64,000 nt of DNA. Origin: Ceratodon purpureus. Taxonomy: Eukaryota; Streptophyta; Bryopsida; Pseudoditrichales; Ditrichaceae. Position 1 is the first letter of the stretch; every line of letters begins with the position of its first letter. Below, one piece after another: positions 10,101 through 41,360 of this stretch. Below the pieces are notes generated by a model that was not told the DNA's origin, made no database searches, and was given only the letters and a program-made list of their open reading frames with translations. Location of the stretch: NCBI GenBank assembly GCA_014871385.1, contig CM026426.1, positions 16,244,183 through 16,308,182 on the forward strand. Direction: 5' to 3'. The position numbers and the translations under genes are program-made.

Positions 10101-10109
10101 TCTGACGAG

Positions 10110-12617: not shown

Positions 12618-12655
<38 letters not shown>

Positions 12656-14670: not shown

Positions 14671-15298
14671 AGGTACTTCTTGCGTACATTCTTAGGTCAA
14701 TCGGGTCTGTCTCCCGATGCTGTCTCCTCTTTTGTGTTTGCAGTTGCCAATCTCTCGCATAATTGCTCGAGTCTTATGCGTTGGTATGGTTACTTGCATT
14801 GTCGGAACGAGTAGAGGGAGCTGAACTTAAAATTCGTCACAGTGTTTTCTCTTCTAAAGTGTTCTTTTATTTCTCATTCTCATTTTTTGTTTGCAATTTC
14901 CTGTGCATCGTGCCATCGCCGTGCAGAGTTTGCAGGCAGCTATGGCAGGCAGTTCATCCAGAGGGCCAGAGACCGCAAGAATCTGGGAAGACCCGTAAGT
15001 TTTTTTCTTAATCTCAAATTCTATGCTTAGTGACATATTTCCTTTACCACATTTCGAAATGCAGTAGTCCCTGTCAGTCTTATAATCAAGTGCAACATTA
15101 AGAGAGGTACTGTGAGGAGCATTCAACAACCAAAAGCAGGCCATAAATTTGACTTACTCAGATGTCGTGAAGGCAAACTGCCCTGATTGAACATTCTCTG
15201 GGTATTGTAATTGGTTTCCGTAGTGCGACGTAACCTTGTAGTGTAACAAATTAGGACTATCCACATCCATAGAAACCCAATTCCTAATATTATTTCTA

Positions 15299-15880
15299 CA
15301 CAATACACTGTACGTGCAGTGTAAATTGCTTCAGTGATCCCTTGATGCATTCTTCAAATATCCTTCCTACATCGGGGATCTCTTGATGCGTCAGTATCCC
15401 CTTCCCATCCTGTGGGAACGGCAAGCCATCGGAGGATCTCTTGATGACTTTTTCACTTGAAAACCTACTCTTTAACTATTTATCCCGTAACTAGGGAATC
15501 TCACCCTGAACAATGCACTGTATGGACAGTGTTAATATGATCATGAGGGAAAAATTGATGCATTGTGCACATATCCTGGGTCCATTGGGGGATCCCTCGA
15601 TGCGTCGGTATCCCTTTCCCATCCTATTGTTACGGCAGACATCGGGGGCTCTCTTGATGACCCACTCACTTGCAACCATATTCATAAAACATAAACTAAT
15701 AACCAGGTAACCTCACCCTGGACAATACACTGTATGGACAGTGCTAATTGCAACCGGGATCCCTCGATAAATTGTGCACATATCCATGGTTCAATCGGGG
15801 TATCCCTCAATGCGTCGTTATTCCCTTCCCATCGTGTGGGTATGGCAGAACATCGGGGGATCTCTCGATGACCTCATTGC
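15299..15880. repeat. Three ~210-bp tandem units with paired palindromes, in intron 1 of ParB-methyltransferase copy 1
   Basis: Units start near 15299, 15508 and 15720. Each opens with AATACACTGTATGGACAGTG (a near-palindrome), then ATTGTGCACATATCC, a family-1 palindrome, GCGTCGGTATCCCTTCCC, a second family-1 palindrome and GATGACC. A further family-1 element lies at about 15980 just before the acceptor. All lie between the donor at 14995 and acceptor at 16069. Confidence 0.8.
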
Positions 15881-17399
15881 CCCTTTCGTCCCTCTGCTTT
15901 TTTTTATGGTCCTTCTAGATAGTTGTTGTCCTGTAAGTGCTGCGCATAGCCCCTCATGCGTGTGTATAAATCAAAGTCATCGAGAGATCCCCCGATGATC
16001 CGATTTGTATAACTGTTAATTGATTTGGAGCAAGAATTTGACCAACAGTGGTGTATGTCTGTTCTGCAGGGAACAACAAGTATTGGAACCACCAAGTGAC
16101 CACAGACCCGTAAAGCTGTACCCCTTTATCGATAGTTGGATCCATGGCTTCAATTTTGTTGGTGAATCAAATCCCTCACAATCTACCGCTGCGATAAGAA
16201 CGTCACCGCATGGGCCATGTCGTGGAAGGATACGGCAGGAGGCATGGCCGTCATTGTCCCCCATCTCACCTGTGAATCACGGATCCATTCCCCGATTGGA
16301 TTGAACGTTCTCGAATTGAAAGGCCTTGACGCGCAGACAGCTATCATGGTGATAGAGGAGAAGATTCCGAAGTGCGATCGGACTCTAACGTATGGACAAA
16401 TCCTCGACCTCTGCAAGCTCAACCTCATTCAGTGTGCATCCCTCACTGCCAAGGGGTTCATGTAACTGCCGGAGGATAAGGCGAAGTGGACTCCGGCACA
16501 TATTGAAAATCAGTGGAACCAAATCGACAAGGCGCGCAGTGAGGCTGCAGCTGATGCTCCTGGTCAATCGCAGGCTCCGACTGCGTCTATTCCTACCAAG
16601 ACGCGGGGCACAAAACGGAAATCATCCTTGGTCAATGACGGGGAAATTGCGGTGCCTGACAGAGGGAAGGACAAGAAGGGAAATGCTGATGACAAGCTTA
16701 TTCTTCAGCAGTGTGTGACAATGTCAGCTTCGGATATTGAGAAGCTGGACAAGACCAAGCAGACAGAGATGAAGAACTTGTATAGCGAGGCTTTTGAACC
16801 CCTGTACAAGTGGGGCCACGAGAGGCTGAAGGATGAGAAGGGAGCGCCAATAACTATGCATTTATCAAAGCTGCACAGGGCCCCTCCAGGTTCAATCGTC
16901 TATTGAGGACTTATTGCGGACAGGTTAAAAGCCTTGACGAACCAGGCGCGCATCGCTCCGAGGTACAGTGGAACAAATAGAGAAATCACTGTACTTCCAC
17001 TGAAGAAGGGACCGTATGGAGAGAAAGGTCTCGTAGAGTTTTTCAATAAACCTCCGGAAAAGAATCAGATAAAGAGCTCCACGAACTTCTACATCATTGG
17101 GGCCAGCATACGGTTGAGTGTTACCGAGATCTCGTCGAGAGTGGCGAAATTGATGGGGCTGACAAAGAGAAGGCGTCGAAGTTCTTAATCATCCCAGTGT
17201 AGGCAGCCAAGCCTGAGCACATCAAGCTCATGCTCCTCTCACGTGTCCTAAACCAGGATATGGCCGGCCTACAGAAGGAGCACACATTCATGATGCAGGT
17301 GCTCAATGCCTGAATCAAGTGGAAAGAGATGGACCGTCCGATGCCAGCTTTACAGGGACGACAACACCCTAAAGAATTCCTGGTAAGTCTGTATTCCCT

Positions 17400-17500
17400 C
17401 CCTCATCGAGAGATCCCCCGATGATCCGAGTTGTAGACATGTTTATGGCCTCTTAGAGTATTCTTCATACTTCCCATCATCGGGGGATCCCTGATGGCAA
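17400..17500. repeat. Family-1 palindrome pair in an intron of ParB-methyltransferase copy 1
   Basis: CATCGAGAGATCCCCCGATG (about 17404) and CATCGGGGGATCCCTGATGG (about 17479) lie in the intron that begins at 17383. Confidence 0.7.
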
Positions 17501-18767
17501 CTTCCTTATCAGAGAGCGCTACTAACCCCTCCTCCGACGTGTGGTCTGCACGAATTTGTTCCACCTCTCGCATCGATCTTCACAAACGTGAAGGAATCAG
17601 AGCTAAGGGACTGCAAGATACCTCTACTGTTTATTGAAGACGACACGGCCGTTGACCGATGGGTGGAGATTGAGAAACAGTATATCAAGGGGAAGCTGCC
17701 AGTTGCGCAAGGGAATGTGCAGACGAACTATGACCTCAAGCGTAAGCCTTTTGTCCAGAATGACTTAAAACCGCTATACGGCCTGCGCTCAGAGGATATC
17801 CACTACCTTGCTGACCTTGTGGAGAGAAAAGAAATCTCTGTGAAGGGATCGAAGGCCACCAAAGGTGATAAAATGGCAAGATTACCGTCCCTTCAAACAG
17901 CAGGGATTACGGAACAACTGGTCAGGCTGATGAAGAACGAGTTGATGAGCACCTATTGTGGTTGGGAGCTTCCAAGCCGTAAGAGCTCATACGTAATGTA
18001 TCCTGCACATGAATGGGACGAGTTTGCCGATTCGAAGTCCATCACTCGCGCAGAGCTGGAGAGCTGGCTCGATAAGGCGTATGCATCGGCTGCGGGGAAG
18101 AAGTGGTTGGACGAACGAAACAGGAACCTCAACAAGACATCTGATCCTGCGGACGTGCCTGACTTTGTTAAGGTGATGTGGGACGCACACAACATGGTAC
18201 AAGAGGAAGCAAGTGTGGCATCGTACATCCAGAAGGGGTTCGCAACAAAGTACAAGTGCATGGTTACGGAGAGGATTAGGCCCGACATTTTTGGCCTTCT
18301 CGGTGTGAAGAAGTGTATCATTGGAGAGGAGGGGGAAAAATACACATATTCATGTACTTCCTGTTTGATGCGATCGGTGACATGCCAGTGAAAGCTCAGG
18401 TGCTGGGCGAGAATAGGCTGAATTGTATATTCGATCCTCTAGAAGGCCATGAACAAAACAATTCGCAGGTCTTTACACGCTTAGAGGCAGTTCTCTTCAC
18501 AGATGCGGCGGGATTCCATGCCACATTACGCACACTGAAACGCGCACGAGGAAAACGAAGAGGAAGTTGTGGAACTGGCATGTGATCCACTACGTCCCTT
18601 CCCGCGAGGACGGATTTCTTGAGCCAGAGGTGGATTCTTCGTACGTTGTGTACATGATTTTCTGCTTCGCTTATTCGGCAACGCAGTCGACGAAGGAATG
18701 CTTCGGGGATTTCTTTGAGGGGAAGAGGCTATTTGACGCCATGTACGTGTGTTACACTGGGATCTAG

Positions 18768-19424
18768 GATGGACGTGGGAGCTTGGAGAACGGGGTAGGT
18801 TAGGGAAGTCAGTGTCCCAGTAGGGCTGGGTAAGCGTGGTGAGAGAAGCAAGTGTTGAAGCAGTTACTGACTTGTGTGAACAATGAGCCAAAGGGTATAG
18901 TCCGGAGGAGGTGCCAAGGAGTGCCTTGTAACCCCGAGCCCATATAGGAGAGGCCAGGCTAAAAGAAGGATGTATGAAGTAAGGAGGGTAAACACAAGCA
19001 ACACTACTGTAAACAGCCAGGGAAGAATCCAAGAGTACGAGGAGGGTTTAGAAGACAACCATAGTTAGGTAGGGTTGAGACTCAAGCATGACTCATAAAA
19101 CCATCACAGAATATTAGAAAGGAGTCCCTTTACTTAGCAGTAGATAGAGTGTCGTAACAGCCCTCATGGGATACCATGGAACCCAAGGCCGAGGCCAAGA
19201 GTGTACAAAACCAGAGTCTACGCTCTAAGAATGGTTCAAGACTCATACAAACTACAGAGTGTCTTTTCACTATGATTCTATGGCTTTATACTATTGGTAT
19301 TTCCTAGGTGCCTCGGTAGTAACTGCTAGTGTCACCGCTAGGACTGAAGTCCCCTATCCTCTAAGTTTCCTTGGCAGCTTCCAAGTCTTCCTTGTCTCCT
19401 GAATCCTCTGACCTTCCTTGGCAG
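18768..19424. other. Probable decayed intron or intergenic interval
   Basis: No convincing coding frame on either strand. It lies between two placed coding blocks of ParB-methyltransferase copy 1 and ends in a good acceptor (CTTGGCAG at 19424), so it most likely holds an intron and perhaps a lost exon. Confidence 0.35.
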
Positions 19425-19852
19425 GTAACAACGTGGCCAAGGACATTACGGAAACCATCCAGCAATGGAAACGACCTGGTCAACCAACAATAAAGCTGGC
19501 GGCTGGCCGCGCTTTCTACTCTCTTTGAGCAGCACATCAAAGATAACATGGTACTTGTAAATGTCAACGGCGGGGCTCACTTCACCTACCTTGGACTTGT
19601 AAGTACTCTGTCTGCACCCTTCGAATGCTGAAGCCATATTGTAAATTTCTCTAATTGACTCGAACGCTTCCACTTTATTCACATTTGTGCGAATAGGCTG
19701 TTGTTCAAGAGGCTTATTTTGCAGATGTCATCCATTTATAATACTCGCGAGATATGCATGTGTTCACTCACGTATAGAGAATCTATGTCAGGGGTCCTTT
19801 TTTGTTCTGAGCCTCAGTGTTTCCTGATATGTCTTCAAGGATGCAAGATTTA

Positions 19853-19930
19853 TCGGGGGATCCCTCAATGGACGGTTAACGTCTGGAATGACGGTATAGG
19901 GGTTGTCAAATCATCGAGGGATCCCTCGAT
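19853..19930. repeat. Family-1 palindrome pair, one perfect
   Basis: TATCGGGGGATCCCTCAATG near 19853 and, at 19913-19930, ATCGAGGGATCCCTCGAT, an exact 18-bp palindrome. Both lie in the intron between the exons ending at 19598 and starting at 20058. Confidence 0.8.
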
Positions 19931-21724
19931 AAATCTTGCACCTTGCACCACATTTCTCGACACTTCTGAACCCTTACGCAATGAAAGTGAACTTGACATT
20001 TGGTTAGAGTGTGCTGTTCGCATTTCATACATGTTCTTAACGCCTTCATGTCTACAGGAAAACGAAGCCATGGTCCTGAAAGTTGTCTTCTTTGACGATG
20101 AGAAGGAACACGCTCAGAAGACGTTGAAGCAGATATGGGACATACTGTACAAGGATACATTTGACCCTGATGTCTTGGTAATCAATGATGATGGTGATGA
20201 TGATGATGAAGCCACCGCTGGAGAGGCTGATGATGAAGATGGCCGCGGACAGACTCCGCCTAATGTTTCCGAATCCAACTCTCAGGACGAGGAGACGGCT
20301 TGCACCTCGGTAGGTTCTGAACCGTAGGCAGGCCCTCGCACCTCTTTTTTATTTGCTTAGCACTGCACCTCGGTTAACTTCCAAGGCATTGTAGCATTCA
20401 TGTACCATATACTCGAACCCAATTTCTACTCCACTGCAACTTTTCTTACCGCTAATGATGTCCTGCGCTCATATTGCAGGGACTGCTGAACTCCGCGCGT
20501 GTCTACGGTGGTGCTGCGTCGAGGGATCACACCATTGACGATTCTCACGTGGGGGAGTCCTTGACGCCACGAAGCGATCTTGCTGCCATGTTGGGCAACA
20601 CAAAGGACGTAGCTCAGTCGTTGCTGGAGATGAGGACATCACCGTTGGATCACCAGACTCAGACAATGTATCCTGAAGGTGGCGCAGGAGACGTGGGAGA
20701 GGGTGCTGAGGGGCTGGAGGACTTGGACTTTAATGTCGTGCACGTCTCTACGGTTTCGCAAAATATTGATTTGGCACAAGCAGAAGAGGAGGACGCGGGA
20801 GTTGACAGGGATTGGGAGGGGACGAACAGGGATGATGCGGACCCGGAAGAGACTCCTCCTCTTCAAGAGCAGGAGACTGAGGGAGGAGTAGCTGATACTC
20901 AGCATGCACCAAGCATCCCAACATCGGGAGATATGCCAATGATAGAAGGTACTGCACCTGATCCAAGCCATCACCCCCCCGTAACTGAGGAGTGCACTCC
21001 TCACAGTTTGCAGTCCTTCGCTCCTCCTGTGATCCCATCCAGCCCCGCGCCGCCGAATACATTTCCCGAGGAGACCCATCAGTCTCCCCCTCTGGCACCT
21101 GACATGAACGAAGATGTTGTTGACGACACTCTGAAGGATTTAGACGCGTTCAGCCCGGAGAAGAAGACATGCGACGCAGAAGCCCTAGTGTGCGACGATG
21201 TGAAGGCATGTGACAATGTCAAAGACAAAGACGCGGAAGAGGATGAGAAAGACCTGGATTTATATGAAGGGCTTCCAGACAAGGCCCTGACGGAGGTATC
21301 TACTGAGCAAGATCTAGTCGTGGTGGAGAAATCTAAGGACGTGAATGTTGCTCACTTGTGCTGTAGAAGGGGTTGAAGCATTTGCAACAATCCCTTCCGC
21401 CGGCCCTTCCGTTGGGAACAATATCGGCCCCCCCAGCCACACGAGGCGAGGATAAGACTGGGCCTAGCACCGGAACGGGAGTGAAGGGGAAGGGAAAAGG
21501 CACCGGCGCTGAGAGAGAGGCTAAGGGAAAAAGCACTCTAGCAGGAATTCGTGCTAGTCTGGACGAACAGGTAAGGCAGCACATATCCCAGCGAGGGAAT
21601 TACACGCCACCCTCTCGCAGCGCTAAATATATTGAAGCAGTTAGACAGGCTCACGAGTTCGTTTACAAGGACTATAATGATACAATCCCATTTACTAATA
21701 ACTTTGAAATAAAACCTTTACCAG

Positions 21725-22738
21725 ATGCCGACGTCTAAGACGGTGGGCATTTCATCGGAAGTCCAAGATCCGAATTTGGACAACAATGCAAAAGGTATCT
21801 AGTCGGACTCTAATTGTAGGACTGATAGTTTTCATGTCCTCAGATTGGACATGTGTAGATCGTGTAGTGTCTCCCGTAGATGCTTGAGGAATATAGTGAA
21901 CATCTGTATCGTGGGATCTCCCGATGCTGAATTCTGATGAGACATATTTTCAGTGGACATCTATATCGAGGGATCTCCCGATGCTCAATGTTGATCTGAC
22001 CTGTCTACAGTGGACATCTGTATCGAGGGATCTCCCGATGCTGAATTCTGACGAGACCTATTTTTGTTGCATTTTCCAGGGCCCCCTCTCCCATCCTTCG
22101 TTCCTGCAAAGGTGATCGGAAAGGTACCTGGTCGAAGGTATTTGGTTGTACTAGACTTAAACGGGGTTCTCGTTCACCGTGGGAATTTTGTGAAGGGAAA
22201 AAAGCGCCCTCTAAAGATCAGACCTGGCTGCCAGGAATTCCTGAACTGGCTTTCTTGTCATGCAATGGTAGCCTTTTGGACCAGCATCGCGGCTAAGAAT
22301 GTACCTCAAACTCTTCATGTTGTTCTTCAGGGCACCTCCTTCAAGCTGCCAAATGTGCAGGTTCTTAGCTAGAACAATTGCATACGTTCGTCATACGTGG
22401 AGTCGTCAAAACCAGACAAGCTGTTCTATCTAAAGGATCTCCGTGTCTTTGCTAAGTTGCTGGTATTGGAGTCCGTTGAGGAAGTCCTACTAATGGATGA
22501 TAGTCCACAGAAGAACCTTCTCAACGATCCTCATAACGCTGTCCACCCCCCAACCTGGTCTGGGGATGATAGGGATAGGTTTATTACCATGACGCTGCAA
22601 CCGTGGCTGGAGGGTCTATTCAGATCAGACGAAGTTGTCACAGAGTATGTGAAACGGGCCCCGCTTCCGTTTGGTCAGTTACCCATGGACCGGTCGTCGG
22701 ACTTGGCAGTGAAGATATTGTGGGGCGTTGTAGTTTAG
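21725..22738 (+). pseudogene. FCP1/NIF-type HAD phosphatase-like gene with one nonsense codon
   Basis: Exon 1 (21725-21794, MPTSKTVGISSEVQD) overlaps the final codons of the preceding gene in another frame. A 285-bp intron (21795-22079) joins in phase to exon 2 (22080-22738). The protein shows YLVVLDLNGVLVHR (HAD motif I as used in plant FCP1/NIF-like proteins, with Asn at the second acidic position), MVAFWTSIAAKN (motif II region), LFYLKDLR, VLLMDDSPQKNLLN (motif IV) and HPPTWSGDD with LQPWLEGLF. Members of this family act as protein phosphatases, but the Asn variant may be weak or inactive. A TAG at 22370-22372 (LS*NNC) stands where relatives have a conserved Gln before Cys, so it looks like a CAG to TAG change. 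Otherwise the frame is intact. It is sandwiched between the two ParB-methyltransferase relics on the same strand. Confidence 0.7.
21895..22060. repeat. Three ~57-bp tandem units with family-1 palindromes, in the FCP1-like intron
   Basis: Each unit reads GTGGACATCTRTATCG, then AGGGATCTCCCGATGCT, then AATTCTGAYGAGACCTA-like sequence, at about 21895, 21950 and 22008. All are inside the intron 21795-22079. This is the rightmost cluster of family-1 elements seen. Confidence 0.8.
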
Positions 22739-24619
22739 TACAAATGACTTTGGATTTTGGAACACTCATTTCATTCAGAGTTCTTCACTGTCAACACATA
22801 CATTCTCTCACATGACCATGTAATGAAGCTGTAGCTCCCTCATCTTTGATAGCAAAATGAAACTAACCAAGTTTCTTAAAATTTGCATTTGTCTTCTTAA
22901 ATGCAATGGAGTTTTGGAACTTTGAATTTGTTTTGTTTTAAAATCGCTTTGCTGTGGTAATACTCTTTCAAGACATGGTCTGACCACCTCTGTGTGCCAT
23001 GGCGTTGGGAGGCACCATCGAGCGTTATGGCGGACGAAGTTTCGGGAAGTATCCGCAACGTGCTGGACGAGAGAGGCGATCTGGAGATGCAAATGAATGA
23101 ACAGCCACGTATTCCGCCAAGCGATGTGGATGCAGACATGGGAGGGTCAGAGGCAGAGGAGGAGGACGATCTGCCGTTTGAAGGTACTAGGGTTTTGTCA
23201 AGAGCGGCCGCCGGAGCCAATAAAAGGGTTGTTACAAGCGACGATGATGAGGTCGAGGAGGGAGTTCGCGGGGTTGAAGTTTTGGTTAGTGGAGGCGCGG
23301 TACCTGAGGAGATCTCACAGGGGTTGGCTGCGAAAATCACAGTTTCGGAAGCGCGTAGGCAGATTCAGAAGGAGATGAAGCCGGATCCGTATGGCGCAAT
23401 TCTGAAGATAGGGAGGAAGCCTGAGGAGTTCTCTATGCTTCGTATTCCGTTGTGTCGTTTATTGCCTTGCAAATTCGTTCGTCTTGCAATGGCTACTGAT
23501 GTGCTGAAGTTGCAAGGCAAATTCTTTAATGGCATACGACCTGGCTCAGCTGCGTTTTATGTAGCTGACACATCAGACAAGGGCGAAACAACGTATGTTA
23601 CTATGGAGACGAAGGCGAATTGGTGTCCAGTATGGTTGGCGTTAGACGAGGCTTTTGAGAAGGAGCTAGCCAAGCACGAGGAGACGCTGGCTCTTTCGAA
23701 GAGGATGTTCTACGTCTTCGATGGGAATCACCGTACTCGTGCGTGGAAGGGATATATTGAGGAAGAGCATTATGACGATCTTGAGTGGGCTACAAGGAAC
23801 GGTAGGCCAGACTGCATAGTGCTTGACGTGCAGGGAAGCCGCAAGGCACTCCTAACGGCAAAGCACGCCATCAACAAGTAAGTGAAGTGCATTGGGTACA
23901 ACGTAAAACTGCAAATTTGAATTTGAAAATTGCTATACCTTGTCCGATTTGAATCCTACAAGTAATGTGTAAATGAACAATCATGACAAATTATGTTGCA
24001 TTATGCTATGTCTAGGGCAAACGAGGACGCTTTTGTGAATGAGAGGGTGCCGCATCCTCTCCATAAGATTCAGACCTTTGGGAAAATGTTCGTCGAGGAG
24101 CTTGAGAAGAACAACATTCTTCCGCCGGAGCTTTTGCAGCAATGCAGGGTGAATCGAAAACAAGGGTGGACTTCAATGCCACAGGAGGTTTTTGTATCGT
24201 TCTTGCACAGTGTAAGTTATCCCCACGCGCCGTAAGCTCTGTTCCGCTGATTGAAACCTCAATATTTCATAATGATTAACGTGTTTTCCAATTGGAATAT
24301 AGGCATCCCTAGCTCGAATTGCTGAGGAAACGGCACAACTGTGAATCAGTGATCACCCTGGTGAGGATACTGGTGTGGAGATGAAAGCCGAGTCGACAAG
24401 GCAGTAAAGGAAGCACAGAATAAACTGTAGACAAAGTTTAACAAGGAAAAGGCCGTCGCCAACCCTAGCAACGGACTGGAATTCAAGATACAGGTAAGTG
24501 TGCAACCACATGTAGTATATAGACTTTCATCAAAGCCTTGTAAAATATTGTGAGAGTTGACCACGTTGTCGTGTCCAATATCCCCACGTGTTTTAGCCTA
24601 ATTGGTTACAAATTTGTAA

Positions 24620-27600
24620 ATTCATTCAAGTCATGAGATTGAATTTTGGACTATCCGATCCGACAGCTCCTTTTTTGCATTCTAGATTTGGGGGAAATGA
24701 ATACAAGTCATGTTAGTTCTTGAGTGAATTATGTGATTTCCACGAGTTCATGAGATTGAATTTTGGACTGTCGGATCTGACAGCTCCATTTTTGCATTCT
24801 GATTGTGGGAGAAATGGTTCAAAGTCATGTTGGTTCTTGAGTGAATTATGTGATTTCCTCGAGTTCATGAGATTGAACTTTGGACTGTCGGATCCAACAA
24901 CTCCTTTTTTGCATTCTAGTTCTGGGGGAAATGGTTAGAGGTCATGGTGGTTCTTGAGTGAATTATGTGATTTCCTCGAGTTCATGGCATTGAATTTTGG
25001 ATTGTCAGATCCGACAATTCCTTTTCTGCATTCTAGATTTGGGGGAAATGGTAAGAAGTTAGATTGGTCCTGAAGTGATTTATGTATTTCCTCAAGTGCA
25101 TGAGATTGAAATTTGGATTGTTGGATCCGACAGCTCCTCTTTTGCATTCTAGATTTCGGGGAAATGGTTAGAAGTCATGTTGGTTCTTGAGTGAATAATG
25201 TGATTTCCTCGAGTTCATGACATAGAATTTTGGACTGTCCAATCCTCGCTCCTTTTTAGCATTCTAATTCTGGAAGAAATGGTTAGAAGTCATGTTGGTT
25301 CTTGACTGAATGATGTGATTTCCTCGAGTTCATGAGATTGAATTTTGGACTATCGGATCCGACAACTCCTTTTTTGCATTTTAGTTTTGAGGGAAATAGT
25401 AAGAACTCATGGTGGTTCTTGAGTAAATTATGTAATTTCCTCCAGTTCAAAAGATTGAATTTTGGATTGTCGGATCCGACAGCTCCTTTTTTGCATTCTA
25501 GAATTGGGCGAAATGATTACAAGTCATGGTGGTTCTAAAGTGAATTTTGTGATTTCCTCGAGTTCATTAGATTGAATTTTGGACTGTCGGATCCGACAAC
25601 ACCTTTTTTGCATTCTAGTATGGGGGAAATGGTTAGAATTCATGGTGGTTCTTGAGTGAATTATGTGATTTCCTCAAGTTCATGAGATTGAATTTAAGAG
25701 TGTCGGATCCGACAGCTTCTTTTTAGCATTCCAAAATTGAGGGAAATGGTTAGAAGTTAGATTGGTCCTTACGTGAATTATGTGATTTCCTCGAGTTCAT
25801 GAGATTGAAATTTGGACTGTCGGATCCGACAGCTCCTTTCTTGCATTCTAGATTTGGGGGAAATGGTAAGAAGTCATGGTGGTTCTTGAGTGAATGATGT
25901 GATTTCCTTGAGTTCATGACATTGAATTTTGGACTGTCAGATCCGACAACTCGTTTTTTGCATTCTAGAATTGGAGGAAATGCTTACTAGTCATGGTGGT
26001 TCCTGAGTGAATTATGTGATTTCCTCGAGTTCATTAGATTGAACTATAGACTCTCGATTCCGACAGCTTCTTTTTTGCGTTCTAGATTTGGGGGAAATTG
26101 TAAGAAGTTAGATTGGTCCTGAAGTGATTTATGTGATTTCCTCGAGTGCATGAGATTGAAATTTGGATTGTTAGATCCGACAGCTCCTCTCTTGCATTCT
26201 AGATTTGGGGGAAATGGTTAGAAGTCATGTTGGTTCTTGAGTGAATAATGTGATTTCCTCGAGTTCATGACATAGAATTTTGGACAGTCGAATCCGACAA
26301 CTCCTTTTTTGCATTCTTGTTCTGGGGGAAATGGTTAGAACTCATGGTGGTTCTTGAGTAGATTATGTGATTTCCTCGAGTTCATGAGATTGAATTTTGG
26401 ACAGTCGGATCCGACAGCTTCTTTTTACCATTCCAGAATTGGGGGAAAAGGTTAGAAGTTAAATTGGTTCTTACGTGAATTATGTGATTTCCTCGAGTTC
26501 ATGACATTGAATTTTGGAGTGTCGGTTCCGACACGTCCTTTTCTGCATTCTAGTTTTGGGGGAAATGGTTAGAAGTCATGTTGGTTCTTGAGTGAATTAT
26601 GTGATTTCCTCGAGTTCATGAGATTGAATTTTGGACTGTCGGATCCGACAGCTCCGTTTTTGCATTCTAGATTTGGGGGAAGGGGGGAAGCACAATAAAC
26701 TGTTTAAAAAAGTGGTTATCTGTTTGACAATTTCAGCCCAATGTGTAAACGGTAGAGAAAGTGGCATGTCGGACTTCTTGATTGAAAATTAAGTTTAGGA
26801 TACGGAATTTAGACCTTATGTTCTACAACTTCCCAAATTTGCGGAAGAAGATGTTGAGTTTTGACACCTCTATGAACACCATAAAGTCCGACAAAGTGAA
26901 AGCTTTCATTTGGAAAAGTGATCGTTACACATCGTTTTTACGACAAAAATCACTTTTGACTTCGCGGGGACCTCCGTTTGTACACTACGCTTGTAGAAAT
27001 GATCTCGACAGCTGTGATTGGAATTCTAGATTGGCCAAAAGTGTCTCAAATATGTTTTTAAGATGCTTTTTCCGTGATACTTTAGGGGAGTTTTTTTTGA
27101 CCAAACATTGTTTTTTAAATAGAAAAAAACATCTTCTAAAGACAATTAGGGTCCCCAAATGAAGAAATTAAGACTCTGGAAAAGTTCATTTTCGTGATTT
27201 AGAACTAGCGGTCAAAATAAGTTCCAATTGAAGATGTTTTTTTTATTAAGAATGTATACAAGACACCTTGTGACACCCTAAAAAGTGACTAAAATGCTCA
27301 AAAACTACACCAAAATGCTCAAAATCAGCTTTGAGCTTTAAGAAACACCACACTTCATATTCTAGAATTGGGGGAAATGATTACAAGTCATGGTGGTTCT
27401 TGAGTGAATTATGTGATTTCCTCGAGTTCATGAGATTGAATTTTGGAGTGTCAAATTCGACAACTCCTTTTTTGCATTCTTGTTCTGGGGGAAATGGTTA
27501 GAAGTCATGTTGGTTCTTGAGTTAATTATGTGATTTCCTCTAGTTGATGGGATTGAATTTTGGATTGTCTCATCCGACAGCTCCTTTTCTGCATTCTAGA

Positions 27601-30600: not shown

Positions 30601-33600
30601 CTGTCAGATCCGACAGCTCCTTATTTGCATTCTAGATTTGAAAGAAATGGTAAGAACTCATGGAGGTTCTTGAGTGAAATATGTGATTTCCTCGAGTTCA
30701 TGATATTTAATTTAGACTGTCGGATTCCAGAGCTTCTATTTTGCATTTTAGATTTGAGGAAATTGGTTTCAAGTTAGGTTGGTTCTTGAGTGATTTATGT
30801 GATTTCCTCGAGTTCATGAGAGAGAATTTGGGACTGTAGGATCTAACAGTTCCTTTTTTGCATTGTGGTTTTGGGGGAAATGGTTACAAGTCATGTTGGT
30901 TCTTGAGTGAATTATGTGATTTCCTCGAGTTCATAAGATTGAATTTTGGACTCTAGGATCTGACAGCTTCTTTTTTGCATTCTAGTTTTGGGGGAAATGG
31001 TTACAAGTCATGTTGGTTCTTGAGTGAATTATGTGATTTCCTCGAGTTCATGAGATTGAAATTTGAGGTGTCGGATCTGACTACTCCTTTTTTGCATTCT
31101 AGTTTTGGGGGAAATGGTTAATAGTCATGGACGTACTTAAGTGAAATATGTGATTTCCTCGAGTTCATGAGATTGAATTTTGGAGAGTCAGATCTGACAA
31201 CTCCTTTATTTGCATTCTAGTTTTGGGGGAAATGGTAAGAAGTCATGGTGGTTCTTGAGTGAAATATGTGATTTCCTCCAGCTCATTATATCAAATTTTA
31301 GACTGTTGGATCCGATAGCTTCTTTTTTGCATTTTAGATTTGGGGGAAATGGTTTCAAGTTATGTTGGTTCTTGAGTGTTTTATGTGATTTCCTTGAGTT
31401 CATGAGATTAAAATTTGGACTGTCAGATATGACAGCTCTTTTTTTGCATATTAGATTTGGGGGAAATGGTTAGAAGTCATGGTGGTTCTTGAGAGGAATA
31501 TGTGATTTCCTTGAGTTCATGAGATTGAATTTTGGATTGTCAGATCCGACAGCTCCTTTTGTGCATTCTAGATTTGAGAGAAATGGTAAAAAGTCATGGA
31601 GGTTCTTGAGTGAAATATGTGAATTCGTCAAGTTCATGAGATTTAATTTTAGAGTGTCGGATTCGAGAGCTTCTTTTTTGCATTTTAGATTTAGGGAAAT
31701 GGTTACAAGTTATGTTGGTTCTTGAGTGATTTATGTGATTTTCTTGACTTATGAGATTAAATTTTGGACAGTCGGATCCAACAGCTCCTTTTTTGCATTT
31801 TACATTGCAGGAAAATCGTAAGAAGTCATGTTGGTTTTTGAGTGATTTATGTGATTTCGTTAAGTTCATGAGATTGAATTTTGGACAGTCGGATCCGACA
31901 ACTCCTTTTTTGCGTTCTAGATTTGGGGGAAATGGTTAGAAGTCATGTTGGTTCTTGACTGATTTATGTGATTTCCTTGAGTTCATGAGATTGAATTTTG
32001 GACACTCGGATCTGACAGCTCCTATTTTGCATTCAAAATTTGGAGGAAATATTAAAGAACTCATGGTGGTTCTTGAGTGATTTATGTGATTTCCATGAGT
32101 TCATGAGATTGAATTTTGGAGTGTCGGATCCGACACCTCCTTTTTGGCATTCTACATTGAGAGGAAATGGTAAGAAGTCATGTTGGTTTTTGAGTGAATT
32201 ATGTGATTTCCTCGAGTTCATGATATTGAATTTTGAATTATACGATACGACAGCTCCTTTTCTTTCATTCTAGTTTTGGAAGAAATAGTTACAAGTCATG
32301 TTGGTTCTTCAGTGAATTATGTGATTTCCTCGAGTTCATGACATTCAATTTTGGATTGTACGATACGACAACTCCTTTATTGCATTCTAGTTTTGGGGGA
32401 AATGGTAAGAAGTCATGGTGGTTCCTGAGTGAAATATGTAATTTCCTCGAGTTCATGAGATTGAAATTTGGACTGTCAGATTCGACAACTGCTTTTTATC
32501 ATTCTAGTTTTCAGAGAATTGGTTAGAAGTCATGTTGGTTCTTGAGTGAATTATGTGATTTCCTCGAGTTCTAGAGCTTGAAATTGGGACTGTCGAATCC
32601 GATAGCCGCTTTCTTGCATTCTAGTTTTGAGGGAAATGGCTACAAGTCATGTTGGTTCTTGTGTGAATTATGTGATTTCCTTAATTCATGACAGTAAGTT
32701 TTGGATTGTACGGTATGACAGCTTCTTTTTTGCATTCTAGTTTTGAGGGAAATGGTTAGAAGTCATGTTGGTTCTTGAGTGAAATATGTGATTTCCTCGA
32801 GTTCATGAGATTGAAATTTGGACTGTCCGATCTGACAGCTCCTTTTTTGCATTCTAGTTTTGAGGTCAATGGTTAGAACTCATGTTGGTTCTTGAGTGAA
32901 TTATGTGATTTCCTCGAGTTCATGAGATTGAAATTGGGACTGTCGGATCCGACAGCTCTTTTTTTTATTCTAAGTTTCGGGAAATGTTTACAAGTCATGT
33001 TGGTTCTTGAGTGAATTATGTGATTTCCTCGAGTTCATGTCACTCAATTTTGGATTGTACGATACGACAGCTCCTATTTTGCATTATAGTTTTGGGGGAA
33101 ACGGTTAGAACTCATGTTGGTTCTTGAGTGAAATATGTGATTTCCTCGAGTTCATGAGATTGAAATTTGGACTGTGGGATCCGAGAGCTCCTTTTTTGCA
33201 TTCTAGTTTTCAGGGAATTGGTTACAAGTCATGTTGGTTCTTGAGTGAATTATGTGATTTCCTCGAGAACTTCAGATTGAATTTCGGACTGTCGGGTCCG
33301 ACAGCTCCTTTTTTGCATTCTAGATTTGGACGAAATGGTAAGAAGTAATGGTGGTTCTTGAGTGAAATATGTGATTTCCTCCAGTTCATAATATCAAATT
33401 TTAGACTGTTGGATCCGATAGCTTCTTTTTTGCATTTTAGATTTGAACGAAATGGTAACAAGTTAGATTGGTTCTTAAGTGAATTCTCTGATTTCCTCGA
33501 GTTCATGAGATTGAATTTTGGACTGTTACATCCGAGAGCTGCTTTTATGCGTTCTAGTTTTGGGGGAAATGGTAACAAGTAATGTTGGTTCTTGAGTGAA

Positions 33601-36600
33601 TAATGTGATTCCCTCGAGTTCTTGAGATTGAAATTTGGACTGTCGGATCGGACAGCTTCTTTTTTGCATTCTAGTTTTTGGGGAAATGGTTACAAGTCAT
33701 GTTGGTTCATGAGTGAATTATGTGATTTCCTCGAGTTCATGACATTCAATTTTGGATTGTATGATACGACAGCTCCTTTTTTGCATTCTAGTTTTGAGAG
33801 AAATGGTTAGAACTCATGTTGGTTCTTGAATGAAATATGAGATTTCCTCGAGTTCATGAGATTGAAATTTGGAGAGTCAGATCCGACAACTCCTTTCTTG
33901 CATTCTAGTTTTGGGGGAAATGGTTACAAGTCATGTTGGTTCTTGAGTGAATTATGTCATTTCCTCGAGTTCATGACATTGAATTTTGGATAGTACAATA
34001 CGACAGCTCCTTTTATGCATTCTAGTTTTGGGGGAAATGATTACAAGTAATGTTGGTTCCTGAGTGAATTATGTGATTTCGTCGAGTTCTTGAGCTTGAA
34101 ATTGGGACAATCGGATCCGATAGCTGCTTTCTTGCATTCTAGTTTTGAGGGAAATGGTTACAAGTCATGTTGGTTCTTGTGAAATTTATGTGATTTCCTG
34201 GAGTTCATGACATTCAATTTTGGATTGTACGGTACGACAGCTTCTTTTTTGCATTCTAGTTTTGGGGGAAATGGTTACAAGTCATGTTGGTTCTTTTGTG
34301 AATTATTTGATTTTCTCGAGTTCATGATATTAAATTTTGGATTGTACGGTACGACAGCTTCTTTTTTGCATTCTAGTTTTGGGGGAAATGGTTAGAACTC
34401 ATGATGGTTCTTGAGTGAATTATGTGATTTCCTCGAGTTCATGAGATTGGAATTTGGATTCTCCGATCTGACAGCTCCTTTTTTGCATTCTAACTTTGGG
34501 GGAAATGGTTTGAACTCATGATGGTTCTTGAGTGAATTATGTGATTTCCTCGAGTTCATGAGATTGAAATTTGCTTTGTCGAATCCGATAGCTGCTTTTT
34601 TGCATTCTAGTTTTGGGGGAAATGGTTACAAGTCATGTTGGTTCTTCAGTGAATTTTGTGATTCCCTCGAGTTCTTGAGATTGAAATTTGGACTGTCGGA
34701 TCGGACAGTTCCTTTTTTGCACTCTAGTTTTGGGGGAAATGGTTAGAAGTCATGTTGGTTCTTGAGTAAATTATGTGATTTCCTCGAGTTCATGACATTC
34801 AATTTTGGATTGTACGATATGACAGCTCCTTTATTGCATTCTAGTTATGGGGAAAATGGTTACAAGTCATGTTGGTTCTTGAGTGAATTATGTGAATTCC
34901 TCGAGTTCATGAGATTGAATTTTGGACCGTAGGATCTGACAGCTGATTTTCTGCATTCTAGTTTTGGGGGAAATGGTTAGAACACATGTTGGTTCTTGAG
35001 TGAATTATGTGATTTCCTCGAGTTCATGAGATTGAAATTTGAACTGTCAGATCCGACAACTGCTTTTTTGCATTCTAGTTTTGAGGGAAATGGTTAGAAG
35101 TCAAGTTGGTTATTGAGTGAATTATGTCATTTCCTCGAGTTCATGAGATTGAATTTTGGACTGTAGGATCTCAGAGCTCCTTTTTTGCATTCTAGTTTTG
35201 GGAGAATGGTTAGAACTCATGTTGGTCCTTGAGTGAAATATGTGATTTCCTCGAGTTCATGAGATTGAAATTTGGATTGTCGGATTCCAAAACTGCTTCT
35301 TTGCATTCTAGTTTTCAGGGAATTGGTTAGAAGTCATGTTGGTTCTTGAGTGAATTATGTGATTTCCTCGAGTTCATGACAGAGAATTTGGGACTGTAGG
35401 ATCTGACAGCTTCTTTTTTGCATTCTAGTTTTGGGGGAAATGGTTACAAGTCATGTTGGTTCTTGAGTGAATTATGTGATTTCCTCGAGTTCATGAGATT
35501 GAAATTTGAGGTGTCGGATCTGACTACTTCTTTTTTGCATTCTAGTTTTCAGGGATTTAATTAGAAGTCAAGTTGGTTCTTGAGTGAAAAATGTCATTTC
35601 TTCGAGTTCATGGGATTGAATTTTGGACTGTTACATCCGAGAGCATCTTTTATGCGTTCTAGTTTTGGGGGAAATGGTAACAAGTAATGTTGGTTCTTGA
35701 GTCAATTATGTGATTTCCTTGAGTTCTTGAGATTGAAATTGGGAGTGTCGGATTCGATAGCTCCTTTTTTGCATTCTAGTTTTGGGGGAAATGGTTACAA
35801 GTCATGTTGGTTCTTCAGTGAATTTTGTGATTCCCTCGAGTTCTTGAGATTGAAATTTGGACTGTCGGATCGGACAGTTCCTTTTTTGCACTCTAGTTTT
35901 GGGGGAAATGGTTAGAAGTCATGTTGGTTCTTGAGTAAATTATGTGATTTCCTCGAGTTCATGACATTCAATTTTGGATTGTACGATATGACAGCTCCTT
36001 TATTGCATTCTAGTTATGGGGAAAATGGTGACAAGTCATGTTGGTTCTTGAGTGAATTATGTGAATTCCTCGAGTTCATGAGATTGAATTTTGGACCGTA
36101 GGATGTGAGAGCTCGTTCTTTGCATTCTAGTTTTGGGAGAAATGGATAGAACACATGTTAGTTTTTGAGTGAATTATGTGATTTCCTCGAGTTCATGAGA
36201 TTGAAATTTGAACTGTCGGATCCGACAACTCCTTTTTTGCATTCTAGTTTTCAGGGAAATGGTTAGAAGTCAAGTTGGTTATTGAGTGAATTATATCATT
36301 TCCTTGAGTTCATGAGATTGAATTTTGGACTGTAGGATCTGACAGCTCCTTTTTCGCATTCTAGTTTTGGGGGAAATGGTTAGAATTCATGTTGGTTCTT
36401 AAGTGAATTATGTGATTTCCTCGAGTTCATGAGATTGAACTTTGGACTGTTGGATCCAATAGCTGCTTTTTTGCATTCTAGTTTTCATGGAAATGGTTAG
36501 AAGTCAAGTTGGTTATTGAGTGAATTATGTCATTTCCTCGAGTTCATGAGATTGAATTTTGGACTGTAGGATCTGACAGCTCCTTTTTTGCATTCTAGTT

Positions 36601-38860
36601 TTGGGGGAAATGGTTAGAACTCATGTTGGTTCTTGAGTGAATTACGTGATTTCCTCGAGTTCATGATAGAGAAATTTAAATTGTACGATACGACAGCTCC
36701 TTTAATGCATTCTAGTTTTCAGAAATCTGGTTAGAAGTCATGTTGGTTCTTGAGTGAATTATGAAATTTCCTCGAATTCCAGACATAGAATTTTGGACTG
36801 TAGGATCGGACTGTTCCTTTTATGCATTCTAGTTTTGGGGGAAATGGTTACAAGTCATGTTGGTTCTTGAGTGAATTATGTGATTTCCTCGAGTTCGTGA
36901 CATAGAATTTTGGATTGTTGGATCCGACTGTTCCTTTTTTGCATTCTAACTTTGGGGGAATTGGTTACAAGTCATGTTGGTTCTTGAGTGAATTATGTGA
37001 TCTCTTCGAGTTCATGACTTTGAATTTCGGACTTTCGGATCCGACAACTCCTTTTTTGCATTCTAGTTTTGGGGGAAAATGGTTAGAACTCATGTTGGTT
37101 CTTGAGTGAAATATGTGATTTCCTCGAGTTCATGAGATTGAACTTTGGACTGTTGGATCCAATAGCTGCTTTTTTGCATTCTAATTTTGGGGGAAATGGT
37201 TAGAAGTCATGTTGGTTCTTGAGTGAATTATGAAATTTCCTCGAATTCCTGAGTTTGAATTTGGGACATTCGGATCGGACACCTCCTTTTATGCATTCTA
37301 GTTTTGGGGGAAATGGTTACAAGTCATGTTGGTTCTTGATTGAATTATGTGATTTCCTCGAGTTCGTGACATAGAATTTTGGACTGTTGGATTCGACTGT
37401 TCCTTTTTTGCATTCTAGTTTTGGGGGAAATGGTTACAAGTAATGTTGGTTCTTGAGTGAATTATGTGATTTCCTCGAGTTCATGACATTGAATTTGGGA
37501 CATTCGGATCCGACACCTCCTTTTATGCATTCTAGTTTTTGGGGGAATTGGTTAGAAGTCATGTTGGTTCTTGAGTGAATTATGTGATTTCCTCGAGTTC
37601 ATGAGATTGAACTTTGGACTGTTGGATCCAATAGCTGCTTTTTTGCATTCTAATTTTGGGGGAAATGGTTAGTAGTCATGTTGGTTCTTGAGTGAATTAT
37701 GAAATTTCCTGGAATTCCTGAGTTTGAATTTGGGACATTCGGATCCGACACCTCCTTTTATGCATTCTAGTTTTGGGGGAAATGGTTACAAGTCATGTTG
37801 GTTCTTGATTGATCTATGTGTTTTCCTCGAGTTCATGACATAGAATTTTGGACTGTAGGATCGGACTGTTCCTTTTTTGCATTCTAGTTTTGGGGGAAAT
37901 GGTTACAAGTCCTGTTGGTTCTTGAGTAAATTATGTGATTTCCTCGAGTTCATGACATAGAATTTTGGACTGTAGGATCGGACTGTTCCTTTTTTGCAAT
38001 CTAGTTTTGGTGGAAATGGTTACAAGTCCTGTTGGTTCTTGAGTGAATTATGTGATTTCCTCGAGTTTATGAGATTGAATTTCGGACTCTCGGATCCGAG
38101 AGCTCCTTTTTTGCATTCTAGTTTTGGGGGAAATGGTTAGAAGTCATGTTGGTTCTTGAGTGAATTATGTGATTTCCTCCAGATCATGAGATTGAATTTT
38201 GGACTGTGGGATGCGACAGCTCCTTTTTTGCATTCTAGTTTTGGGGGAAATGGTTACAAGTCATGTTGGTTCTTGAGTGAATTATGTGATTTCCTCGAGT
38301 TCATGAGAGTGAAGAATGGAGAGTCGGATCCGACAACTCCTTTTTTGCATACTAGTTTTGGGGGAAATGGTTAGAAGTCATGTTGGTGCTTGAGTTAATT
38401 ATGTGGTTTCCTGGAGTTTATGAGACTGGAATTTGGACTGTAGGATCCGACAACTAATTCTTGGTATACTGATTTGGAGGAAATCGTTTAGAAGTAGTTT
38501 GTTTTTTGAATTATCTTCTGGTTTCCTTGAGTTTATGAGATTGAATTTTTGACTGTAGGATCCGACAGATGATTTCTGACATTTTGATTTGGAGGAAATG
38601 GTTCAAAAGTAGTTTGTCTTCTGAGTCATTTCTTTTGTTTCCCCAAATTCATGACATTGAAATTTGGGCTGTAGGATCCGACATCTCTTTTTTTGCATTC
38701 TAGTTTGGGGGAAAATGGTTAAAAGTTAGATTGCTTAAGATTCAATTAGGTGATTTCCTCGAGTTTTTGAGATTGAATTTTGGACTGTAAGATCCGTGTG
38801 CTGTTTTATGGCTGCTAGTGTTCGAGGAGATGGTTCAAAGGGATGATTAGGAATCTGTCA
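24620..38860. repeat. ~14-kb satellite of 117-bp units with a family-2 palindrome core
   Basis: Roughly 115 units, all in one orientation. Each contains GATTTCCTCGAGTTCATGAG, ATTGAATTTTGGA, the palindrome CTGTCGGATCCGACAG, CTCCTTTTTTGCATTCTAG, TTTTGGGGGAAATGG and GTCATGTTGGTTCTTGAGTG. The 117-bp period equals 39 codons, so ORFs of 60-165 aa run through it on both strands; these are artefacts of periodicity. Units vary by sub-class: TCGGATCCGACAGCTCC dominates the left two-thirds, while TACGATACGACAGC and TAGGATCTGACAG types appear to the right. Both ends are more degenerate. The array lies wholly inside an intron of ParB-methyltransferase copy 2. Confidence 0.95.
26690..27355. other. ~660-bp non-satellite insertion inside the array
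   Basis: Satellite similarity stops after GATTTGGGGGAAGGGGGGAAG and resumes at CATATTCTAGAATTGGGGGA. The insert is AT-rich and has a 126-codon ORF (26782-27162) with no recognisable family. Its 3' part has imperfect repeats (CACCAAAATGCTCAAAA and CTAAAATGCTCAAAAACTA). No terminal inverted repeats were evident. It could be an inserted element or remnant original intron sequence. Confidence 0.6.
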
Positions 38861-41360
38861 ATCTAGCTTGAATGATTAAAAGTACTAATTATCATTTACG
38901 AATTTTGGCATAGATTTGACAGCACTATGATATGCACCCAAGTAAGGTTGAGATGACGCTTGAGAAGCTGCAGTCTATTGCCACGGCTGAAGTAACTACA
39001 TAGACAAAGGGGACGTGGCTTCGTTGGTGGAATGGCACCGATAGCATGAGGAAGACTCTGAAGTTCCCTACTTCACCATGTTCTGAGAATGCACTTGAAC
39101 AATGGATTCATCGAGCAGCTTTCTGGGCATGTGTAAGTTTCTCAAATTTTTGAATTCGTAAAATAATTTTGCCTTGATACAATGTGGTTTTAATCAATAT
39201 TTTTTACTTTCAATCAGCTCAAAGAGACGGCCGAGGAGGAGTGCCAGTCTTGGCTGGGTATCATTCGCCAGGAGGAAGCAGCAAGTGCATGTTCGGAAGA
39301 TCAAACACCCGTGCTGCCTAAGAGACGGCCCATCCGCCAACCCATACCGTATTACCTTGACAAGTGGCGCGTCTTGCTTTGGGAGAAGGCGTACGGTGCA
39401 TTCTTTACGGGGAACACTCCGTACTTGAAGTCATTTCCGTTTAATGCACAGCCACGCACGGACTTGGCATGGAGGCGACTACTGTATCAATACTTCAAGA
39501 GGGAACTCATTCCCTTGGGCGTCATTGACACAATACCAGCTGCATGGGCGAACTGGTTGGAGAACACGAGTCCAGAGTTTATATATACACCCACTCAGCG
39601 GAAGAATTTCAATAGTGGCCATTTGAAAGAGGGCTGCTGGTACCTAGAGTGTCCAAAGACATTCGTGACAGCCGAGGAGAAGGATGTGAAGGAGGAGCAT
39701 ACTAAGAAACGAGATGGAGATGAAAAGCAGAGCGATGAAGCGGATGAAGAGCCTGAGCAATCAATTCCTAACGATGAGCCGGAGAAAGCCAACCAAGCAG
39801 TGTCCACCTCCACTCAAGCCGAGGAGGGGTCAGCAAGGAATCAAAAGCGAGGGCCCCTTTCATCGAAATCTGGATCCGCAATTGCGAAGGACTCTGCTCA
39901 AAAGAAACGCCAGAGGAAGGACAACTCCCTGCAGCCGGAGACGAGGTCCATCGAGCTCTCAAGCTTGGATCATGCCTTGAGGCCAACATTGTCGTCGTCT
40001 TCAGGCGGAACGAGGATGCAGGAATACTTCTCAAATCAGTCTATCAAGCAGTGGATGCAGGCTAATCCATTGATGGATCCAGCCACAAGGCCACAGTCTT
40101 ATACGGATGTTCTGGAGTGGGTAGCAAGACTTAGTCCTGTCCGAGCTAGAAAGTTCGACGGATCGTTGGTTACGTCCGGTGGGTATGCTGACTTGATTAT
40201 TGCTGATATATCGGAGGGGCTTCGCGTACCAGGAGTGTCGACCACGCCCACGGAGGTTCCAAGTTGGAATGCCAAAGATCCCTTGTTTGTGGAAGGAGCC
40301 TTTGATCTAGCGGACTTCATACTTCAAGACGATGGCGCGATGATTGTCATCTACCCCATGGATAGGGAGATAAAAGCTCTTATAGAGAGGAATATGTGGC
40401 GTACTAAAATGGAGATCAAGAAAACCTGGATTGGTGGCCAATTGATGTGCCTGGCATCTCCAATGGATCTCGAAGGCATCACTAACCAGTTTCATGTACT
40501 CTCTGTACTTGCATGGGCTCGCATTTCACATTACGAGAGCCTTCAACGGAATTTGTGAAGAAGAGCATTGATGTTTCCAGGAACGAACTCATCTTCAATT
40601 GGGTCAATCTTGAGAATTAGCCCATGTGCAACAGAGCCCCCTGGCGCGGTCCTCGAGAGAAGGACGTTCTCTTCATGGAATCTTTGATTCGAGCTACAAC
40701 AGATCCAGGGGATGTGGTCGTCGACGTAGCAGCAGGTACACGTTTCATGAAGTGCCCATTGGTCTCTACTATGTATGCATTATCGAAAGAGGTAGTAGGA
40801 ATTCTCATTCATGGATTATTGCAGGGTCTGCAATCAAGGCATGTTGTAATAGCAGAAGGCACATTGTGGCCTTGGAGGATGACACCGATATCTACAACGA
40901 TGTTCTGAAGCCAATGATGTTACCGCCGATTCCAACTCCTCCGACAACTGATCCGGCAGCATCAGCAGGCCCTAGCCAAAAGCAAGAGGGGGAGAAAGAG
41001 ATGCTTCCAGAGATAGAAGATCCATTGCCAGGTTACCAAGTGAAGCCTCGGTACAAGAAACCAACACCTTTGTAAGTGCGTCTTCGATTATGGCGTGCAT
41101 TAATCAGTGTAGTGTTCTTATTGTATGTTACAAGTGTAATATGTACTTACGTTTAAATGTTCGTTGTGTGTCATAGATATTATTCCACACCTTCAAAGGA
41201 ACCTGTACTCAGTCAATGCGTTCGAGAAATTATACCATCCCCTCAATCAGATGGGCTTCCATCGTACGCCGAATCTGAGGCACAGTTCCTAGCCGAGCAA
41301 CTGTCACCGCTTTCAGACGAAGGCAGGAGAGATAAGTTCGATCCTCGCGTTCTTACTTAG

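Follow-up and report, generated by a model that had tools for sequence, protein, structure and literature searches.

The 64,000-nt stretch of the moss Ceratodon purpureus analysed here (C6:16244183–16308182, hereafter the window) contains what is left, in broken form, of two distinct multicopy elements that resemble transposons, each with a bacterial-looking DNA-binding gene, and there is little doubt that these, element 1 and element 2, belong to separate families. Each subfamily of element 1 has its own dispersed, GATC-centred, palindrome-like word, which is confined to the element in all five copies, from two subfamilies, that were compared. As an overall explanation we consider it rather likely that the window preserves a junction of two decayed elements, and that the element-private words may be read by a ParB-like protein. 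A preliminary description of this DNA had proposed a tandem pair of ParB-like/methyltransferase fusion genes (blocks 1 and 2) flanking an FCP1-like (NIF) gene. The blocks belong instead to the two different families, joined at about nt 23,020, and the idea that they are diverged duplicates fails, as their open reading frames (ORFs, of at least 25 aa) show no blastp match to each other at E<=1e-3. Its other suggestions fared better: both blocks are spliced and broken (exons bounded by splice sites and interrupted by stops and frameshifts), both appear to belong to mobile DNA (the block-1 element has terminal inverted repeats, TIRs, and target site duplications, TSDs, and block 2 is present in many copies), and a genome-wide search found open versions of both.

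TIRs and 4-bp TSDs mark element 1 as a DNA transposon, whose DUF7869 gene is on the strand opposite to block 1 and NIF. Five 40-kb genomic stretches were compared, four with elements of subfamily 1A (on C3, C11, C2 and C6) and one with an element of subfamily 1B (C5). The four 1A copies, of 22,724, 23,204, 22,726 and 22,784 bp, end in a perfect 26-bp TIR, ATGCCATATTTAACTATTTCTGGACT, and all have TSDs (TCTT, AATA, TCTA and ATGT), while the 1B copy is 18,680 bp in length with a 20-bp TIR, ATGCCACATTTAAGTAAATC, and the TSD CTTT. Both subfamilies thus show the TIRs and constant-length TSD of cut-and-paste transposons; a TSD of 4 bp is also the length found in Sola transposons. The C3 and C2 copies are 99.6% alike. 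In the C3 copy the DUF7869 gene lies on the minus strand with a 671-aa exon (PF25273, E 3.3e-44), and block 1 lies on the plus strand in exons of about 455, 484, 92 and 429 aa. We infer that the DUF7869 protein is the putative transposase, which would cut at the TIRs. Between 1A and 1B this protein is 66% identical, a third subfamily of DUF7869 elements stands at 57% identity, and the window block-1 ORF has 30% identity to 1B over the matched part.

The association of these genes was followed in 13 long 1A-type block-1 matches on C1–C13 except C6 (partial, small-contig, C6 and 1B matches being excluded). A NIF gene lies within 30 kb in all 13 and a listed DUF7869 match in 10, and in every linked case NIF has the same strand as block 1 and DUF7869 the opposite one. 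The FCP1/NIF gene is real, as the preliminary description had it, since PF03031 is matched by two window ORFs (E 1.1e-7 and 1e-6; 32.1 and 28.9 bits) and by a 225-aa ORF of the C3 copy (E 1.1e-16; 61.3 bits), all above the gathering score of 21.8. It does not, however, stand between the members of a pair but belongs with block 1, and the predicted adjacency of an FCP1-like gene to the relatives therefore applies to block 1 only.

The words are about 16–20 bp long, and each element contains 36–45 of them depending on the mismatches allowed. The 1A-type word, TCGGGGGATCTCCCGA, is one mismatch from symmetry and is repeated in the 1A copies; the 1B word, TCGTAGGATCCTACGA, is a perfect palindrome, found 30 times in the C5 stretch by a palindrome count with no preset word. 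Almost all 1A and 1B sites have GATC at their centre. When up to 3 mismatches are allowed, the four 1A elements hold 45, 42, 42 and 43 sites, so that 172/172 are inside and none occurs in 68,562 bp of flanks, and in the 1B stretch 43/43 are inside with none in 21,320 bp of flanks. A single 1A-type site occurs as a cross-match in the 1B element, and element-2-type sites number 0 inside the five elements. The flank of the C11 copy has four element-2-type sites, and the same flank matches an element-2 locus (L019). Genome-wide, TCGTAGGATCCTACGA is present at 882 exact places (reversed control 0), and 48 of the 50 places listed are in two 1B copies (31 on C1, 17 on C2). For the 1A 20-mer CATCGGGGGATCTCCCGATG the count is 121 matches forward and 120 in reverse (reversed control 0), and 98 of the 100 listed lie, as judged by eye, within 10 kb of a block-1 match, the exceptions being C3:25049351 and C4:22761396.

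Within the elements, sites with up to 2 mismatches fall mainly outside ORF exons (37/40 in C3 and 34/38 in C5, where exons make up 45% and 50% of the element). Sites in different segments have a core identity of 0.88 (1A) and 0.944 (1B), and their flanks are at the random level (0.299 vs 0.298 in 1A, 0.307 vs 0.302 in 1B); flanks within the same segment are more alike (0.365 and 0.352), which is what local arrays would produce. It is quite improbable that the words are a neutral minisatellite that spread without function. Many sites do stand in local tandem arrays (e.g. C3 local 13737–14201), as such a minisatellite would, but they also occupy 8/11 (C3) and 7/11 (C5) of the non-exon gaps, have conserved cores between flanks that are random from segment to segment, and keep a symmetric layout while the sequence differs between subfamilies.

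ParABS are partition systems, and by analogy with them the words are candidate recognition sites, bound by the ParB-like protein of their own family; we place this proposal slightly short of probable. The protein would bind its family's words as ParB binds parS, marking the whole element as self, and this self-marking would serve the regulation of transposition, replication/segregation or chromatin. In element 2, the methyltransferase domain might modify DNA at the words, or might have become a binding domain. The private word may be how an element recognises itself. A broader view, which is tentative and somewhat doubtful, is that eukaryotic transposons took over a ParB-parS-like system in which a ParB-like or ParB-methyltransferase protein and its words co-diverge in each family, so that the element would coat, mark or segregate its own DNA along its full extent and tell itself from sister families. 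The likeness to ParABS is one of analogy, namely a ParB-like turn combined with a palindromic word that recurs within one replicon, and it differs in the dozens of word sites per moss element.

In CACTA and Ac elements, subterminal repeats are bound by the transposase or a TNPA-like protein, and the words could likewise serve to bind the transposase or such a partner, with the ParB-like gene having another role. Consistent with this, every 1A or 1B word in the stretches examined lies in an element with a DUF7869 gene, and the DUF7869 protein itself diverges between the subfamilies. We nevertheless regard it as unlikely. The sites are spread along introns and intergenic gaps, filling the interior rather than being concentrated at the ends, the TIRs of 1A and 1B are nearly shared while the words differ, and ParB proteins bind palindromes; for these three reasons the ParB-like protein is modestly preferred over the transposase as the reader of the words. 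Element 2 also argues against the transposase, as none of its 16 copies checked (see below) is near a listed 1A DUF7869 and yet its C6 subfamily has a GATC-centred repeated word.

Sequence comparison supports an amino-methyltransferase domain in block 2. For tests of homology, nine phage methyltransferases and ten phage ParB regions were aligned and compared by hhalign, with 200 column shuffles as control. The element-2 methyltransferase matched the nine phage enzymes with probability 96.9 and E 1.5e-10 over 185 columns, at a score of 73.3 against 23.7 for the best shuffle (0/200 reached the score). Pfam PF01555 matched the intact domain with E 0.0046, below the curated cut-off, and in phmmer comparisons with solved structures it matched DpnA (2.9e-4), RsrI (0.0017), MboIIA (0.015) and CcrM (0.035), which we take to be beta-class enzymes. 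A rRNA dimethyladenosine transferase was also matched (0.033), and the PDB matches lie around motif I. The methyltransferase (MT) exon of the intact C12 copy (L058) reached a best E of 0.04 over 56 aa against phages. In the window, block 2 has the order of features that had been described for it: the turn FYVFDGNHRTRAW in an open exon, the motif-IV-like ADLIIADISEG, and motif I, PGDVVVDVAAGT. The spliced product of the C12 copy, of at least 1,113 aa, contains KMFYVFDGNHRTRAW, GLADLIIIDIPEGL and PGDVVVDIGAGTG/ASIKACRQSGRNIVALEDDQELY. The proposed ParB-methyltransferase fusion can thus be retained, as a ParB-like/amino-methyltransferase fusion, for block 2. In block 1 only the turn stands (FFIIGGQHTV in the C3 copy, as had been guessed); its motifs IV and I are without profile support even in intact copies. 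The suggested profile searches of the exons accordingly returned the block-2 methyltransferase but neither a Pfam ParB nor a methyltransferase in block 1.

Several observations weigh against a ParB-like reader of palindromic words. Membership of ParB, judged from sequence, has the right turn and layout but is statistically weak. Against phage ParB, the joint score of the element-1 and element-2 regions was 24.3, which 0/200 shuffles reached, at a probability of only 8% and aligned on the GxHR turn; taken singly, the score was reached by 2/200 shuffles for element 2 and 7/200 for element 1, and by 6/200 when the two elements were compared with each other. There was no ParB match in Pfam and none in the PDB profile search, and a hidden Markov model built from phage ParB did not single out the window ParB region among all ORFs. 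The GxHR-type turn is present in element 2, where the C12 copy and likewise the window read DGNHR in alignment with the phage turn; in element 1 it reads GGQHT (1A) or GGQHC (1B), with G and H kept and the Arg absent. The presumed block-1 methyltransferase scored 18.0 in hhalign, a value reached by 15/200 shuffles, and has no Pfam match, intact copies included; its comparison with the element-2 methyltransferase is likewise unsupported (13/200). In block 2, motif IV differs from [DNS]PP[YFW], with IDIPEG aligned under CDPPYN, and the variants are DIPE in the C12 copy, D[IV]PE in five C6 copies, DISE in the window and DVTE in L019. Catalysis by element 2 is thus putative, and is left uncertain because the defining residue pattern of this motif is non-canonical. 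DUF7869 is a family of unknown function in Pfam. As for the words, their counts are not independent because many sites are in short tandem arrays, and the 1A word is imperfect, perfect 14- and 16-bp palindromes having no clear excess in 1A (1–4 per copy against shuffled means of 0–3.0). Among element-2 copies, those of the C6 subfamily have CTGTCGGATCCGACAG-like sites in their array (84 in that of the window, with up to 3 mismatches), with six more at 41.7–47.6 kb of the window. The C12 copy instead contains CTGTCGGAT, arrayed as half-sites in the same intron (14 forward, 5 reverse); just 3 of its sites match the C6 word with up to 3 mismatches, and perfect 14-bp palindromes are absent. Since these half-sites are not palindromic, the word pattern is shown for element 1 only.

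It has also to be considered whether the fused methyltransferase actively places N6-methyladenine or N4-methylcytosine on the words and so tags the copies. Such self-methylation has been proposed in print for the Ectocarpus protein described below, in the part of PMC12477816 concerned with it, and would agree with the amino-methyltransferase similarity of element 2 and with the central GATC of almost all 1A and 1B sites. For the moss elements it seems rather improbable, as 5/7 readable C6 copies (the window among the seven), like the C12 copy, have D[IV]PEG as motif IV, and element 1, which has the clearest words, has no supported methyltransferase.

Element 2 is a separate multicopy family that carries the ParB-like/methyltransferase gene of block 2, and we infer that it is also a transposon. 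Its independence of element 1 is seen in 16 intact MT exons outside C6 (the first 17 tblastn matches after the window's own subfamily, minus one on the small contig C45): a ParB exon lies on the same strand within 10 kb in 16/16, and none of the 16 has a listed NIF or DUF7869 of the 1A type within 40 kb. Counts of matches in the moss's own genome come from tblastn searches that score the best candidates only and are therefore lower bounds, with at least 93 for the MT exon, 129 for the block-2 ParB exon, 150 for NIF, 150 for DUF7869 and 139 for block 1. With at least 93–150 scored matches for each of four exon queries, the multicopy status of the blocks exceeds chance.

The two elements meet in the window at nt 23018–23022, where the match to the C3 copy of element 1 ends (23022) and where two sibling copies of element 2, L023 and L024, begin to match (from 23007 and 23020). 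Upstream of the element-2 gene both of these siblings, the two that were compared, differ from the window, and together with the end of the C3 match this identifies the window pair as a junction product. The elements would have met at about 23,020 through insertion, deletion or recombination. The module originally envisaged, a duplicated ParB-methyltransferase pair flanking an FCP1-like gene, agrees with gene order and strand in the window, but it is hardly credible given two separate families and a junction absent from the two sibling copies checked. A tandem duplication of blocks 1 and 2 was rejected for the lack of any blastp match, the differing sibling upstream sequences and the separate linkage.

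The kind of gene described here is already known, since a ParB-methyltransferase accessory gene has been published from a giant algal transposon. According to the portion of PMC12477816 that describes it, Sola1-1_Ec32 of Ectocarpus is a 21.5-kb DNA transposon with a ParB-like plus N4/N6 methyltransferase gene of 1104 aa on the strand opposite to the transposase. That section also cites green and red algal transposons with similar proteins, one from the Bostrychia moritziana genome (Petroll 2025). Element 1 shares the opposed gene layout of Sola1-1_Ec32, and its 4-bp TSDs fit Sola; the putative likeness to Sola1 lies in this layout and TSD length. It differs in the moss host, the NIF genes, the private palindromic words and a block-1 methyltransferase that is unsupported. 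The other algal reference cited beside that of Petroll is reportedly the work of Iyer, Abhiman and Aravind from 2011. Among phages, N6_N4 methyltransferase fusions are reported in the sections of PMC12704722 that survey ParB-CTPase folds, and the phage ParB-N6_N4_Mtase fusions, such as the Wolbachia phage WO methylase, as far as they are covered there and in the relevant passages of PMC3089641, resemble block 2 in the order of ParB turn, motif IV and motif I in one protein. They are, however, single open frames of about 400–460 aa, with DPPY in the six aligned, whereas the element-2 protein exceeds 1,100 aa, is spliced and has D[IV]PEG. The moss members and the element-private words appear to be new; no description of such words was recognised in the titles and abstract openings of literature on eukaryotic or mobile ParB-methyltransferases or transposon palindromes, which is a weak negative. 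The algal accessory gene was described without a target, and the moss relatives bring a concrete candidate for one. They have open genes and nearly identical copies, and their word is family-specific and different in the sister subfamily, so that the published guess, in which the protein binds the DNA of its own transposon and marks it epigenetically, becomes directly testable in moss.

In the window, element 1 is a truncated and partly deleted copy (nt 5633–23019), colinear in blastn with the C3 copy at about 78–96% identity with gaps. Both TIRs are lost, and a search of the window copy with up to 3 and up to 8 mismatches did not find them. Exon borders, here and in block 2, were placed from splice signals and reading frames. 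The DUF7869 gene (7191–10145, minus strand) is broken and partly deleted, with PF25273 matches at 8398–9120 (E 2.2e-34) and 9183–9776 (E 6.1e-5). Block 1, on the plus strand, begins with a broken exon 1 of approximate start (16020–17382), in which the ParB-like turn reads WGQHTV, because of a frameshift, instead of the GGQHTV of the intact C3 copy. Exon 2 (17495–19598), also broken and approximate at its start, contains about 18747–19430 that is absent from the C3 copy, and ends with the motif-I-like MVLVNVNGGAHFTYLGL at about 19.55–19.6 kb. Exon 3 (20058–20309) is placed by its splice sites and match to the C3 copy, and exon 4 (20480–21738), which is broken and has a low-complexity tail, by its ORF, splice sites and C3 match. 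The FCP1/NIF-like gene (22052–22738, plus strand) is broken by a stop at 22370–22372. A second, weaker NIF-like ORF stands beside the first in the C3 copy (L036:7296–7928; E 1.5e-4, just above the cut-off), and the window copy ends at the 23,020 junction before the corresponding position. Sixteen relict 1A words TCGGGGGATCTCCCGA (with up to 2 mismatches) remain between 5969 and 22038, starting at 5969, 6261, 6479, 9128, 10123, 10161, 10236, 10286, 10324, 10374, 15853, 15980, 17406, 21909, 21966 and 22023. Element 1 also contains an array of 121/241-bp units (11300–12634), matched in the C3 copy by an array at the same place, where blastn alignments are offset by about 127 bp.

Block 2 is on the plus strand. 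Its open ParB-like exon (23027–23877, within ORF 22961–23881) is followed by an exon at 24016–24211 with the splice junction INK/ANEDAFVNERV, the same as in the intact C12 copy, and by one at 24313–24493 that is broken by stops and a frameshift and was placed by splice sites and comparison with the C12 copy. The next intron harbors a 117-bp satellite array of about 14 kb (24570–38796), which contains the 84 sites noted above. Beyond it lie a broken exon delimited by splice sites (38914–39132), the methyltransferase exon (39218–40555) with the motif-IV-like sequence and a frameshift near its end, the motif I region (40621–40741, in ORF 40621–40908; PF01555 E 0.023, phrog_3008 DNA methyltransferase E 0.0054), and a further exon with splice sites and IKACCNSRRHIVALEDDTDIY (40825–41071). 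The distance between the starts of the ParB and MT exons ranges from about 2.3 to 16.2 kb in four C6 copies, and given this variation the array seems to expand and contract.

Fourteen of the scored MT-exon matches, the window's included, have at least 52% identity; all are on C6 and 12/14 have stops. The other 79, of 40–44% identity, are on C1–C13 and one small contig, and 65 are without stops. Among scored matches, then, the window subfamily (52–100% identity) is found only on C6 and mostly broken, and the sister subfamily is largely open on C1–C13. The assembly is 362.5 Mb in 151 contigs, of which C6 makes up 110.5 Mb, and passages of PMC8000587 on the C. purpureus genome give 360 Mb in total, with U and V each exceeding 100 Mb, or about 30% of the genome. 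Judging from these sizes, C6 is probably the U or V sex chromosome, and the broken C6-only subfamily is possibly a fossil record of ancient transposons kept on a chromosome that does not recombine. The genome also has a more divergent set of ParB exons (37–40% identity), most of them open, e.g. at C3:23217982 and C4:5730415.

Downstream of block 2, the ORF at 49463–50713 matches DUF4216 with E 1.8e-5, below the curated cut-off, and has at least 100 genome matches listed. These 100 were compared by eye with the listed MT exons: the window and C6:12452866 have one within 20 kb, and C6:12624391 and C6:62852199 at 23–25 kb, all on C6. A DUF4216 gene was rejected as the element-2 transposase, as it is not generally linked and none of those listed lies near the intact copies elsewhere. 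Rfam gave no match in the window, tblastn against phages none with the window ORFs or with the C12 ParB exon, and scans of viral contigs no relatives; the window ORFs matched nothing in PDB, or at chance level. PADLOC returned weak matches only (MTase_II 0.012; PDC-M64C 0.0019 on the 1B protein). Two minus-strand ORFs near the start of the window (3–1304, 434 aa; 3731–5071, 447 aa) have Pfam matches at chance level only. Towards the other end, ORF 56580–56906 contains FKGFIADNAQANWNAVQIIYG and is without Pfam support, presumably resembling plant transposase fragments, and a 305-aa ORF (59588–60502) has a weak RING-finger match (E 0.021).

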